Assembly (NCBI RefSeq): GCF_040371085.1
Contig: NZ_JAMBMT010000001.1
Span: 2,480,001-2,544,000 of the forward strand
Direction: 5' to 3'
DNA from: Psychrobacter sp. AH5
Lineage (GTDB): Bacteria > Pseudomonadota > Gammaproteobacteria > Pseudomonadales > Moraxellaceae
Length of the DNA: 64,000 nucleotides
The notes beneath the pieces are model-generated. The model worked only from the letters and a program-made list of their open reading frames with translations, did not search any database and had not been told where the DNA came from. This document shows positions 13,830 to 17,906 of this stretch, one piece after another (positions within the stretch are counted from its first letter, which is position 1; each line of letters begins with the position of its first letter). The position numbers were made by a program, and so were the translations under genes.

Positions 13830-15113
13830 TTATTCACTAGGCGGAGTTTGTGCCTTTTTTTCGCGCATAACCTTTAGGTACTCTTGCACCGCTTTGTTGT
13901 GCTCCGCTAAGCTATTGGTAAATTTATGACCGCCGGTACCGGTCGCCACAAAGTATAGAGCTTGGCTATCGGCAGGATGCAAAGTGGCATCGATAGAGGC
14001 AGGCGATGGTAGCGATATCGGCGTTGGTGGTAAGCCATCGATCTGATAAGTGTTATAGCCGGTCTTTTCATCGATATCTTTACGGCGAATATTACCATCG
14101 TAGCGGCTGCCCATACCATAAATAATAGTTGGATCGGTTTGCAAGCGCATGCCCATTTTTAAGCGATTATTAAAGACCGCTGACACTAATGGACGCTCAT
14201 CGCTAACGCTGGTTTCTTTTTCGATAATAGAGGCCATAATCAGCGCCTCATAAGGGCTATCATAAGGTAGATCTGGCGCGCGATTTTCCCACGCCTCTGT
14301 CAAGGCTTGCTGTTGACGCTTATAGAGATCTGTTAATACTTGCTTGTCGGTCGCGCCTTCACCATAGTAGTAAGTGTCTGGTGTAAACCAGCCCTCCAAA
14401 TTATAGCTGACAATAGGATCGCTACTACTCGTCACCGACTCTGGCAATATCCCGACCAAATCCAAGGCCTCAGCAATACTAGCATTGTCGGCTCCATCGA
14501 CTAATACTTCTTTGACGATACCCTCATTATCACGCAAGTTTTGATACAGATCGCTTGCGGTTTTACCTTCGATGACTTGTACTTTTACCATCGCTACTTT
14601 TGCGCCCTGGCCTAATATATGTATAGCTTCTGCAATCGTTGGGTTCTCAGGCAATGGATAGATACCAGCATGCAGTGGGCCATCGACTTGCGACTTGATA
14701 TAGAGCTTGGCAATACTGGCAGAAAACAGCGGAATCTGTTTTTGCCACTGCGCCAATAAGCCATAATAGGTATCGCCTGCGCCGATAGTAACTTTTTGGG
14801 CCGGCTGAGTGATACGGCCAAACAACGTCTGATAAACCATAACCAACAAAAAGGCGGCAATGAGCCCTAGCACTAATAATATCTGGTAGCCGCGCTGCAT
14901 AAAAAATGATTGATTGTCTTTTTTGTAGCGTCTGGGTTTACTCTTACCACTAATCAATGAGACATCGGTGGCGGGCACTTTGTCCAAGTCATCGCTATCA
15001 TTATGCGTAGCGGTCGGCTCTAAGGTTGATGAGTCATCAACCTCAGCGTTTGGCTCAGTAGCGGCATTGTCATCAGGCTTATTGGCAGGGTTTTCGGGTG
15101 TTGGCGTGCTCAT
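13830..15113 (-). CDS. mltG: Endolytic murein transglycosylase MltG (YceG)
   Basis: An inner-membrane lytic transglycosylase that cleaves nascent glycan strands and sets their length. A disordered, acidic cytoplasmic N-terminus (about 1-70) precedes one membrane helix (about 77-95) and a periplasmic YceG domain. The catalytic glutamate lies in ASIIEKETS (Glu298, equivalent to E. coli Glu218), followed by FNNRL-x-x-GMRLQTDPTIIYGMG, the family signature. At 427 residues it is longer than E. coli MltG (340), mostly through the N-terminal tail. Upstream the expected pabC has been displaced by the dpnI cassette, so mltG must now be transcribed from within or beside that insert. Confidence 0.96.
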   Translation of the reverse strand: MSTPTPENPANKPDDNAATEPNAEVDDSSTLEPTATHNDSDDLDKVPATDVSLISGKSKPRRYKKDNQSFFMQRGYQILLVLGLIAAFLLVMVYQTLFGRITQPAQKVTIGAGDTYYGLLAQWQKQIPLFSASIAKLYIKSQVDGPLHAGIYPLPENPTIAEAIHILGQGAKVAMVKVQVIEGKTASDLYQNLRDNEGIVKEVLVDGADNASIAEALDLVGILPESVTSSSDPIVSYNLEGWFTPDTYYYGEGATDKQVLTDLYKRQQQALTEAWENRAPDLPYDSPYEALIMASIIEKETSVSDERPLVSAVFNNRLKMGMRLQTDPTIIYGMGSRYDGNIRRKDIDEKTGYNTYQIDGLPPTPISLPSPASIDATLHPADSQALYFVATGTGGHKFTNSLAEHNKAVQEYLKVMREKKAQTPPSE

Positions 15114-15271
15114 GGTAACTCAAAGGCAGAAGTTTGCTAGAATTTAGCATTGAACCGTGTGCTTTTCAATGGTATTTGCTTAGCTTGTGAAATATCTTAG
15201 GGTTTGTGGCAGATTTTATGGCTTAATAGCTATTATTATATCGATAACACTCAAAATAAAGAACGCTCATT

Positions 15272-16036
15272 ATGGATTTAAACTTCAATCGACAGCTCGC
15301 TAGCACCTATAAATCCCCTAGCCAAATTATCCGAGTATTGAGCGAAGACTGGGTCGCCAAACAAAGCTATTGTCCAAATTGTAGCAATCAGCCTTTAGCT
15401 GAATTTGATAATAACAAGCCTGTCGCTGATTTTTATTGTGCTAATTGTAGCGAACAATTTGAGTTAAAAAGTAAAAAGGCCAAGCTAAGTCAAATCATTA
15501 ATGACGGCGCTTATGACACTATGATTGAGCGTATCAATAGTGAGAATAATCCCAGTTTTTTCTTTTTGACTTATTCAGCACAGTTTATAGTTAATAACTT
15601 TTTAATTATCCCTAAGCAATTTTTTAAGCCTGACATTATTATCAAACGTAAGCCCTTGTCAGCCACAGCTAAACGCGCCGGTTGGGTTGGCTGTAATATT
15701 GATTTACGTAAAGTACCTAGTTCTGGGAAAGTTTTTTTAGTCAAAAACGAAAAGATAATTCCGCGCGAAAATGTCACTCAGCAATTTCAAAAAACGCTTT
15801 TTTTACGGCAGCAATCGCTAGACTCACGCGGTTGGACATTAGATCTTTGGCAGTGTATTGATAGACTTGATGACAAGTTTTCATTGCAGCAAGTTTATAT
15901 TTTTACAGATGAATTACAGCTTAAGCATCCTGACAATAATCACATCAAAGACAAAATCCGCCAACAGCTGCAAGTGTTACGGGACAAAGGTATTATTGAA
16001 TTTTTGGGTCGTGGTCATTATCGGAAGTTATATTGA
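15272..16036 (+). CDS. dpnI: DpnI-like methyl-directed restriction endonuclease
   Basis: A very close homologue of Streptococcus pneumoniae DpnI, also 254 residues, a Type IIM enzyme that cuts GATC only when the adenine is methylated. The PD-(D/E)XK active site is intact: Asp53 in PVADFYC, then Glu64 and Lys66 in FELKSK. Zinc-binding cysteines are at 34, 37, 56 and 59. Other near-identical blocks are INDGAYDTM, NNPSFFFLTY, KRAGWVGCNIDL and the C-terminal winged-helix segment IKDKIRQQLQVLRDKGIIEF, which also reads the methyl group in DpnI. It is AT-rich compared with its neighbours and points opposite to mltG/pabC, as expected for acquired DNA. No methylase gene is present or needed. Confidence 0.95.
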   Translation: MDLNFNRQLASTYKSPSQIIRVLSEDWVAKQSYCPNCSNQPLAEFDNNKPVADFYCANCSEQFELKSKKAKLSQIINDGAYDTMIERINSENNPSFFFLTYSAQFIVNNFLIIPKQFFKPDIIIKRKPLSATAKRAGWVGCNIDLRKVPSSGKVFLVKNEKIIPRENVTQQFQKTLFLRQQSLDSRGWTLDLWQCIDRLDDKFSLQQVYIFTDELQLKHPDNNHIKDKIRQQLQVLRDKGIIEFLGRGHYRKLY

Positions 16037-16037
16037 T

Positions 16038-16526
16038 TTACACATCATCCCAAAGAGGCAGGTTTTTAATCGCTAATAGATGTTTATGATATTCATGTGG
16101 TAGATAGTCCTTCTCTAACTCATCATTAACGGCAAAAAAATGATGTGGATTGTCATAAACATAGTTACAGGGTTTATTTTTTACCTGTTTATTCCACTGC
16201 CATAATAACGCTAATGGTGTGCGTACAGGATTAGTAAAAGCTTGAGCTTTGATAATTATTGCACACATTACCAATTCTTCATGATGAATTTTATCTATCT
16301 CTTTTTCTAATATTTCTCTCCTAGTATGCGCATAATCAAATACGCCGCCATAGGCTACATATCTTTTACTTCTCTCAAAATAAATAACCTTAAGAGCAAG
16401 TTCTGTCTTAGTATTCAGATAAGCAAACTCATTAGGATAGCTTCTAGCCTTACGGCATAGTTTGGTGAAGATCATTAATCGACGAATTTGTAGCGGAATT
16501 CTTTGCTCTTCATAAATTGCGCGCAT
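16038..16526 (-). CDS. Unknown protein inside the DpnI cassette (orfX)
   Basis: A 162-residue protein I do not recognise. It lies between the dpnI-like and dpnD-like genes on the opposite strand, its stop one base from the dpnI stop. The ATG at 16526 has an AAAGGA about nine bases upstream. The sequence is basic at the N-terminus (QIRRLMIFTKLCRKARSY), mixed helical, with many aromatic and His residues towards the C-terminus (NYVYDNPHHFF, HEYHKHLL). No signal peptide or membrane segment is seen. AT-richness matches dpnI. Its conserved placement would suggest a role in the restriction system, but nothing in the sequence shows one. Confidence 0.65.
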   Translation of the reverse strand: MRAIYEEQRIPLQIRRLMIFTKLCRKARSYPNEFAYLNTKTELALKVIYFERSKRYVAYGGVFDYAHTRREILEKEIDKIHHEELVMCAIIIKAQAFTNPVRTPLALLWQWNKQVKNKPCNYVYDNPHHFFAVNDELEKDYLPHEYHKHLLAIKNLPLWDDV

Positions 16527-16666
16527 TAGATATCATCCTTTGTTAAAGACCATAGCATTGATCGATTAGCGTCAATGCACAAGCATAGTTAACAAAAGAC
16601 GATCACTTCTCCCAGTTACTTTTGCTACGATCACCAGCACAGTATCTAGCAAAAGGCAGAGCAGTG

Positions 16667-16858
16667 ATGACAAACGAAAAGGTATTAAAGACTTATCAGA
16701 TAGAGATAGTCGAAACGATGAGCGCTATCATAGCAATAAAAGCTGAGGATGATTCTTCAGCGATTATGCAGGCAAAACAGAGGTATAGAAACGAAGATAT
16801 TGAATTAAATTATGATGATTTGATAGAGACTGAATTTAATATCTTTGAAGTGGAATGA
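16667..16858 (+). CDS. DpnD/PcfM-like protein
   Basis: A 63-residue acidic protein resembling the DpnD/PcfM family, whose founder is encoded next to DpnI in pneumococcus. Matching features are the opening KTYQIEIVETMS strand, the VxA-like IAIKAEDDSSAI, the KQRYRNEDIELNYDD segment and the end ETEFNIFEVE. DpnD's function is not known; the family also occurs on conjugative plasmids. ATG 16667 is preferred over a TTG at 16622, since the family begins close to this ATG. Its stop is only four bases from the convergent pabC stop. Position beside a dpnI homologue strengthens the assignment. Confidence 0.72.
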   Translation: MTNEKVLKTYQIEIVETMSAIIAIKAEDDSSAIMQAKQRYRNEDIELNYDDLIETEFNIFEVE

Positions 16859-16862
16859 GTGA

Positions 16863-17906
16863 TTAATTGAACTCAACCACTTCCCCCAAAAGCAAAGTAA
16901 GCGCCGTCACAGGCATAATCCCGCGTACTGCATTACAAAAGAACAGTTGGCTTAGTTTTGGCAAATCCTCGTCCGGCAATGATCTAATAATCACTGGATT
17001 TTCGGTGTTAGATAAGCTATCGATAATGACTTGTCGCATGACGCCTGCCACACCCGATTGAGTCATCGGCGGCGTGTACCATTGCCCACTGGTGAGATAA
17101 TGAGCGTTATTCTTTATAGCATTATTTTGAATATAGTCGCTAGCAGTAGTCGATGTTGATAACTGGTAGAAGACATTACTCATCGTGCCCTCGACCCAAT
17201 TACCTGTCATATCGCGCACTAATCCTTCACCAATGACAGATGTATCGGCTAGCGAGCTTACCGCACTCATTTTTAGACGTTGCAGCTCGCCACTAGCTAG
17301 CACATTGTCGAGACGGTTAAGGGTTTTTAGACCCGCTAAAGTCGGCGGCAGCCAAGCCAATTGCGAGGTTAGACAGATAGCGGTGGTAGGCGGCTGCAAG
17401 GTAATGTTGCAATCATTTGCTAGGCGTAATGCAGCTTGATGAATAGGCTGACTAATGGTTTGCTTATTAGCAGGCATAATCTTTAGCCAAATCTCGCAAG
17501 CGCTACCCTCTGCATTGGTGCAAAAGCAATAACCACGCACACTTTGGGTAGCACGAGTAATGATGACTTTCATTACCCCTTGCTGTAGCTGCTTAGCGTA
17601 ACAGTTTAACTCTGACAATAGGCTGGGTTTGGGGATATCCAGCTGCAGCGCACGCGCATGACTAGCCAGCCGTTGCCAATGATAATCCGCCCACAATATC
17701 TTGCCATCAGTGATAGCCATAGTGGTAAAAAAACCATCAGCGTAAGCCAAGCCGCGATTGTCTAATGACAGTGAGGGCGATGATAGCGCTGGGGAAGCTA
17801 ACGTCGAATTAGTTTGCTCAGCGGTAGCTGAGGGCGACTGTAGGCAATACCAGCTATCGCTATTAGCCTTAATATTTTGACTATTATTGCCACTATAAGG
17901 ACTCAC
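16863..17906 (-). CDS. pabC: Aminodeoxychorismate lyase (class IV aminotransferase fold)
   Basis: A PLP enzyme converting 4-amino-4-deoxychorismate to 4-aminobenzoate and pyruvate in folate synthesis (EC 4.1.3.38). Fold-type IV marks are DNRGLAYADGFFTTM near residue 50, the PLP lysine region L-K-TLNRLDNVLA and the EGTMSNVFY block that binds the cofactor phosphate. At 347 residues it is longer than E. coli PabC (269): a non-conserved N-terminal extension of about 45 residues and a Ser/Asn-rich insert. The GTG start at 17906 lies three bases after the upstream lipoprotein stop, suggesting translational coupling. In E. coli it directly precedes mltG; here the dpnI cassette separates them. Confidence 0.88.
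   Translation of the reverse strand: MSPYSGNNSQNIKANSDSWYCLQSPSATAEQTNSTLASPALSSPSLSLDNRGLAYADGFFTTMAITDGKILWADYHWQRLASHARALQLDIPKPSLLSELNCYAKQLQQGVMKVIITRATQSVRGYCFCTNAEGSACEIWLKIMPANKQTISQPIHQAALRLANDCNITLQPPTTAICLTSQLAWLPPTLAGLKTLNRLDNVLASGELQRLKMSAVSSLADTSVIGEGLVRDMTGNWVEGTMSNVFYQLSTSTTASDYIQNNAIKNNAHYLTSGQWYTPPMTQSGVAGVMRQVIIDSLSNTENPVIIRSLPDEDLPKLSQLFFCNAVRGIMPVTALTLLLGEVVEFN

Follow-up and report, generated by a model that had tools for sequence, protein, structure and literature searches.

A DpnI gene between mltG and pabC in Psychrobacter, the probable alternative to DpnII-type cassettes at one restriction locus

The window analysed here is a 64,000-nucleotide stretch from Psychrobacter sp. 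AH5. It contains an open reading frame of 254 residues (15272..16036, plus strand) that corresponds to dpnI (dpnC-like) and, by homology, encodes a methyl-directed endonuclease for GATC. The Pfam DpnI profile (PF06044) matched residues 1-180 with an E-value of 4.4e-81, and DpnI_C (PF17726) matched residues 184-252 with 4.3e-33, so that the product is divided by these models into a catalytic domain and a winged helix. In a PDB sequence search, the solved DpnI sequences 4esj and 4kyw were matched across residues 1-253 (7.6e-105). D53, E64 and K66 as well as C34, C37, C56 and C59 are all present, and these catalytic residues and cysteines are invariant in all 70 full-length copies of the genus. 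K66 is presumably catalytic, and we take the four cysteines to bind zinc. The roles of D53 and E64 in DpnI are described in an excerpt of PMC4117772. By homology, the enzyme would cut GATC solely when its adenine is methylated. The two Pfam domains, the 4esj match and the conserved residues confirm the first-pass annotation, which had described a full DpnI with an intact active site. Its assignment of the DNA to a Psychrobacter-like chromosome also held, since the nearest named DpnI loci among the best 80 of 108 relatives are from Psychrobacter.

Downstream of dpnI lies a gene that the first-pass annotation did not mention. This gene, U162 (16038..16526, minus strand), encodes a conserved protein of 162 residues and is convergent with dpnI, its 3′ end being one base off the dpnI stop. 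It was defined by its open reading frame and its homologues, of which a database search returned 50 at E ≤ 1e-3, every named one from Psychrobacter. The AF2 model of the U162 protein is of moderate quality (mean pLDDT 77.7); it gave no PDB structure match at E ≤ 0.001, and the top probability in the fold search was 0.28 among the matches listed. In a number of genomes, U162 is repeated in tandem within the dpnI-dpnD interval, for example at L123, L136, L140 and L179.

The next gene is dpnD-like (16667..16858, plus strand) and belongs to the DpnD/PcfM family (PF14207, 6.7e-8). As had been claimed, its start lies 630 bp past the dpnI stop, counted from the ATG at 16667, which gives a product of 63 residues; 16622 is only a mechanical TTG start. 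The model of the dpnD product is of low confidence (pLDDT 70.4, pTM 0.49), and no paper on a function for dpnD was recognised in the literature searched. The gap between U162 and dpnD holds a conserved non-coding element (16556..16609) with GATC at 16560 and 16601, 41 bp apart. Its 18-bp core occupies 16592-16609, and an additional GATC is found at 16629. No Rfam match was obtained at the gathering threshold for positions 14500-17500. The whole segment is flanked on the left by mltG (YceG; 13830..15113, minus strand) and on the right by an aminotransferase class IV gene (16863..17906, minus strand), putatively pabC; both were identified by profile matches, and both flanks are shared with the other genomes described below.

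The host had been claimed to lack Dam, and a search of its genome for a GATC methylase had been proposed. No match to PF02086 (Dam/D12) was found in the window's genome, while the same search was positive in 4 of 14 named control genomes, and PF01555 (DpnA/CcrM type) likewise gave no match there but was found in 11 of the 14 named controls. The claim stands for these two families, but the profile search also found methylases of the PF02384 type in this genome. On these profile searches, GATC methylation is likely absent from the window's genome.

Within the genus, the DpnI profile PF06044 is found as gene or remnant in 84 of 105 genomes, dpnD (PF14207) in 74 and U162 in 63. Full-length open dpnI is present in 70 of the 84; the other 14 show stops, frameshifts or remnants, some of which may be sequencing errors, and include a gene split across two contigs (G086) and one of which just the first 28 codons are left (G043). 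In the family sample, 93 of 299 genomes have a DpnI match, namely the same 84 and nine from five other genera, some of them fragments. DpnI is thus not rare in the genus, and these counts do not support the first-pass view that it is unusual in its group.

PF02086 matches occur in 22 of the 105 genomes, 16 of them strong (>190 bits) and six weak. The strong ones fall in 12 of the 21 genomes lacking DpnI versus 4 of the 84 with it (Fisher p 1.9e-7, a value that ignores kinship and includes 12 genes that compete with DpnI for one site). In all 12 of these DpnI-lacking genomes, the strong D12 gene lies in the interval adjoining mltG, which is the place of dpnI in the others. Beyond the DpnI cassette, pabC is found in 84 of 84 genomes, in two of them (G022, G037) on another contig; on the near side, mltG is found in 81 of 84, the exceptions being another gene in G039 and G074 and a contig end in G095. 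The DpnII-type cassettes adjoin mltG in 12 of 12 cases and pabC in 11 of 12, with another open reading frame instead of pabC in G075. The locus could be seen in 103 genomes, the two others (G081, G087) being DpnI-lacking. It carries DpnI or its remnant in 84, a DpnII-type cassette in 12, something else in two and an empty mltG-pabC gap in five (G077, G101, G034, G026, G040). The two other cases are G104, with an RCC1-repeat gene between mltG and pabC, and G047 (L106:1849-6346), where open reading frames of 229, 228 and 1021 residues lie beside mltG at the place of dpnI while U162 and dpnD are kept. The description of the host as lacking Dam is too static: 12 relatives carry a methylase cassette of the DpnII type in this very slot, which suggests that the GATC methylation state is itself switched at the mltG-pabC locus.

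The DpnII-type cassettes consist of a D12 gene, a DpnA-like gene, an HTH gene, a gene for a protein of 84 residues and an endonuclease candidate; PF01555 was confirmed in one of the DpnA-like proteins and HTH in two proteins. Both the D12 and the DpnA-type methylases are present in all 12 cassettes. One D12 protein (group B) matched DpnM best in the PDB (2dpm, 1.5e-48), followed by Dam, and shares FNGLYRVNSKN.FNVP.G with DpnM. The DpnA-like protein matched CcrM (4.2e-58) better than the entries named DpnA (3.1e-31). From these matches, we infer that the cassette methylases are GATC-specific. The endonuclease candidate varies: a protein of 226 residues is found in six cassettes, DpnII (PF04556, 8.7e-92) in one, a protein of 174 residues in two and a DUF6996/6997/7226 protein in three, the last assignment being taken from one of the three proteins. 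The 226-residue candidate is MutH-like in the one tested, at NCBIfam scores of 30.6 and 23.7 bits that are far below the cut-offs of 243 and 229.9, and it carries an ELKT...ETxF stretch, which we take to be a MutH-type motif. Its PDB matches, mainly to ankyrin repeats, cover short stretches and were regarded as chance. The DUF6996/DUF6997/DUF7226 protein is the partner of a Dam-family methylase (L072:4260-5642, minus strand; L073, L074, L075), and may represent a type of restriction endonuclease. The acidic 84-residue protein (L063:4427-4678, minus strand) is encoded in the 12 DpnII-type cassettes and also next to replication genes of plasmids, and the one tested had no Pfam match; a role as DpnI inhibitor was considered and dropped because of this second location.

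To follow the two states along the genus, a tree of mltG and pabC was built from 99 genomes, leaving out G039, G074, G075, G087 and G095, where a flank is missing, and G081, where the locus was not seen. At least ten changes between the DpnI and the DpnII-type state are required over 91 genomes with only 11 DpnII-type tips, on a tree that may itself be distorted by exchange. Eight of these 11 genomes have their closest flank in a DpnI genome, two at an empty or remnant site and one in a DpnII-type genome of the other kind, and the flanks of DpnII-type genomes are up to 97.3% identical to those of the nearest DpnI genome. Flanks are almost identical in the pairs G020/G050, G027/G028 and G080/G041, in each of which the former genome is of the DpnII type.

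Further probable traces of exchange are found in dpnA. A DpnA-like protein is encoded in 17 of the 105 genomes; the 12 full copies are exactly those of the 12 cassettes, and the five others are truncated. The truncated copies begin at residue 44-56 and thus lack the DPPY motif (38-41), and all are located in DpnI loci, with dpnD on one side and pabC on the other (G042, G057, G064, G070 and G037, the last decaying and split over two contigs). The window's locus has no such dpnA scar. Compared with the intact cassettes of relatives, all five scars share one breakpoint, to within one base at the ends of the alignments. In these five loci, dpnD is 94-100% identical, and the flanks between clades are 75-86% identical. 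The remnants appear mosaic, a pattern read from 100-bp windows and best seen in a single genome: over its first 100 bp, the remnant of G042 is 97% identical to the other clade versus 90% to its own, and the remainder is 95-99% identical to its own. We read the dpnD identity and the G042 pattern as one dpnA junction that probably passed from species to species through recombination within the remnant, and the mosaic sequence suggests that the scar may have acted as a homology arm. Other observations point the other way: past its first 100 bp, the G064 remnant resembles G070 more than its own clade in most windows, and the G070 remnant is only 84-87% like the others over its first 100 bp, so that independent truncations at the shared position are a possible alternative. 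The pN/pS of the G057 scar against those of G064 or G070 (0.05-0.08), which is as low as that of intact dpnA (0.06-0.13), is likewise to be set against the exchange reading. The sequences leave unproven which state was first and in which direction each replacement went.

The element upstream of dpnD was compared among the same genomes. In the 58 loci with both genes, the U162-dpnD gap holds 146 GATC versus 30 expected from composition, and the mltG-dpnI gap holds none in 55 loci versus 34 expected, both contrasts being inflated by kinship. The GATC pair 41 bp apart occurs in 58 of 58 loci. For the window as a whole, 196 GATC were counted versus 314 expected from a second-order Markov estimate. 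Among the loci compared, the exact 18-bp core is found in 59 genomes, with one copy each. At two mismatches or fewer it is found in 73 of 105 genomes, but such matches alone carry little weight, as a reversed-pattern control also gave scattered, mostly single matches. Where dpnI and dpnD are both present, the core (at most three mismatches, at most 400 bp upstream of dpnD) was found in 67 of 71 loci, including 10 of the 14 without U162, and was absent from G018, G038, G039 and G063. No copy was detected in any of the 12 DpnII-type cassettes, nor in nine of the ten DpnI loci without dpnD, two of these nine showing matches elsewhere at chance level; in the remaining one, G001, a variant with four mismatches is present. 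Nothing clear by eye was seen when the element was inspected as a sigma-70 promoter. The element may be an ordinary operator or a site at which methylation is read.

The first-pass annotation had named a functional Dam or GATC methylase in the same genome as DpnI as grounds for refuting its reading. The window's own genome is free of PF02086 and PF01555, but at face value such a combination exists in 4 of the 84 DpnI-positive genomes. These four (G007, G064, G039 and G074) carry a Dam-family gene together with an endonuclease or a candidate for one on short contigs (L075-L078). Plasmid-type replication genes are present on three of the four contigs, all but that of G039; L075, L076 and L077 carry relatives of the pA17P1 replication genes, and L078 does not. 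Terminal overlaps of 164 and 22 bases were found in L076 and L077, respectively, and related methylase-endonuclease pairs are annotated on the plasmids pYP14d (L276) and pA17P1 (L277). The chromosomal DpnI is full-length with its catalytic residues in all four genomes, and strict incompatibility is therefore not established. A binning error is improbable for G007 and G064, which correspond to deposited strains. Silent expression, altered specificity or regulation could lie behind these double genomes.

Outside the genus, we inspected the best 80 of 108 DpnI relatives, of which 27 are not from Psychrobacter, a sample biased towards close relatives and without matched control loci. Within this sample, 15 of the 27 loci have a D12, DpnA-like, DpnII or 174-residue gene, or a piece of one, in flanks of up to 4 kb, two of them (L251, L252) on short, weak matches; in the other 12, including Streptococcus, no such gene or piece was found within flanks of at most 4 kb. 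Both loci from Moraxella (M. catarrhalis and M. oculi) show the order D12 piece, dpnI, dpnD and dpnA piece. In four Bacteroidota loci (L244:1891-2850, L256:3041-4000, L259:2997-3998, L275:1506-2486), the D12 frame right upstream of dpnI is open and approximately as conserved as dpnI, with its last dozen or so residues replaced. A frameshift was considered for these frames, and no normal C-terminus was found in the other frames. In L256 and L275, D12 is followed by dpnI, dpnD, a RhuM-family gene and a DpnA-like gene. A gonococcal record (L279:3381-4624) contains a DpnI homologue followed by a DpnA-like gene interrupted by a stop and a homologue of the 174-residue candidate of Psychrobacter.

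We consider it probable, at roughly three in four, that the window's DpnI gene is one of two alleles of a restriction locus, the other being a DpnII-type cassette with which it is swapped. The exchange history at mltG-pabC is well supported by the flanks and the occupants of the site; for restriction and methylation by the two alleles, we infer the activities from homology. DpnI would destroy DNA entering from Dam-positive or DpnII-type cells, and its host would survive because its own GATC sites are unmethylated. A DpnII-type cassette would, conversely, mark the chromosome and cut unmarked DNA. The two alleles would be exchanged through homologous recombination in the flanking DNA, sometimes inside dpnA, and a truncated dpnA left behind could then act as a homology arm. 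Where DpnI is installed by such a swap, the methylase whose place it takes is lost in the same step, and the entry of a nuclease otherwise harmful to its host could be explained in this way. A wider version is unlikely, though it can be formulated: DpnI replacement elements would enter GATC restriction-modification loci across phyla by using dpnM or dpnA pieces as arms, and in Psychrobacter the GATC pair, together with U162, would read residual methylation and restrain DpnI until the mark is diluted.

Three other explanations were weighed against the two-state locus. DpnI might be a stand-alone gene, recently acquired by a naturally Dam-less host as an ordinary barrier against phages and plasmids, at a site without special history. 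The own genome without D12 or PF01555 methylase, the plain empty site of five DpnI-lacking genomes and the window without a dpnA scar would all fit, but the gene extends through the genus (84 of 105), its site is taken by a DpnII-type cassette in 12 of the 21 DpnI-lacking genomes, and five genomes bear a dpnA scar next to DpnI; the shared site and the scars disfavour this explanation, which we find quite improbable. Very unlikely, in our judgement, is that mltG-pabC is a general hot spot for the insertion of unrelated cassettes and that the pairing of DpnI with DpnII is coincidental. Such a site would be expected to hold cases such as the RCC1-repeat gene of G104 and the three further open reading frames of G047, one of 1021 residues, beside U162 and dpnD, but among 103 loci these are the only two against 84 with DpnI or its remnant, 12 with a DpnII-type cassette and five empty ones, and the pairing recurs in other phyla among the best 80 of 108 relatives.

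The locus might also be mainly regulatory, with the winged helix and the GATC element sensing methylation and cleavage being secondary or silent, which would allow coexistence with plasmid methylases. The excess of GATC in the U162-dpnD gap, the 41-bp pair in every one of 58 loci and the lack of GATC in the mltG-dpnI gap of 55 agree with this, as do the four genomes with DpnI and a Dam-family gene, and a regulatory role has been suggested for Drg in an excerpt of PMC4269198. Yet all 70 full copies agree at every catalytic residue, the element is missing from 4 of 71 loci with dpnI and dpnD, and GATC may simply belong to an ordinary operator, so we regard a mainly regulatory locus as improbable. 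Under the favoured reading of a two-state locus, opposite GATC states at one swapping site would divide close relatives into groups that restrict each other's DNA. Replacement would be caught in the act in the scars and mosaic junctions, and the displacement of a methylase by a methyl-directed nuclease would become directly testable. The GATC element and U162 would give a defined starting point for studying how the transition is controlled, and dpnD would gain a regulatory context.

In the pneumococcal DpnI cassette, the gene order is dpnC-dpnD. The pneumococcal DpnI and DpnII have been described as two complementary systems at one chromosomal location, and DpnA as methylating incoming single-stranded DNA (excerpts of PMC3573125). 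Within the scope of these excerpts, the Psychrobacter locus resembles the pneumococcal pair in having alternative cassettes at one site, DpnI together with DpnD, and DpnM- and DpnA-type methylases in the other allele. It differs in its site between mltG and pabC, in U162 between dpnI and dpnD, in its own element upstream of dpnD and in its dpnA scars. In addition, the endonuclease candidate of the Psychrobacter DpnII-type cassettes varies (MutH-like, DpnII, 174-residue or DUF6997), and HTH and 84-residue genes are added.

For neisserial drg, the dam-replacing gene, excerpts of PMC4269198 and PMC516771 report mutual exclusion with dam in 84 meningococcal isolates and a truncated dam in some strains. 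Here too, a DpnI homologue would displace a GATC methylase, the GATC specificity of the displaced enzyme being putative in our case. Unlike at the leuS/dam locus of drg, as presented in these excerpts, the displaced unit in Psychrobacter would be a whole DpnII-type cassette, and both states alternate across the genus. The counterpart of the truncated methylase is the truncated dpnA beside DpnI, found in 5 of the 84 DpnI genomes and not in the window.

The Lactococcus plasmid pSRQ700 carries a DpnII-type system, which we take to be LlaDCHI, and likewise combines two methylases with a DpnII-type endonuclease. Identity to its proteins is 52% for the DpnA-like protein (second methylase), 48% for D12 (group A) and 40% for the DpnII-like protein. 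It differs in being plasmid-borne, with collinear genes and no HTH or 84-residue gene in its annotation. The specificity of LlaDCHI is given as GATC in an excerpt of PMC4190342. In the open-licence PMC literature searched, we recognised no earlier account of such a locus with DpnI and DpnII in Psychrobacter. The pneumococcal pair and neisserial drg are the precedents for the locus described here, and what is new is its position between mltG and pabC, the scars, U162 and the GATC-bearing element upstream of dpnD.
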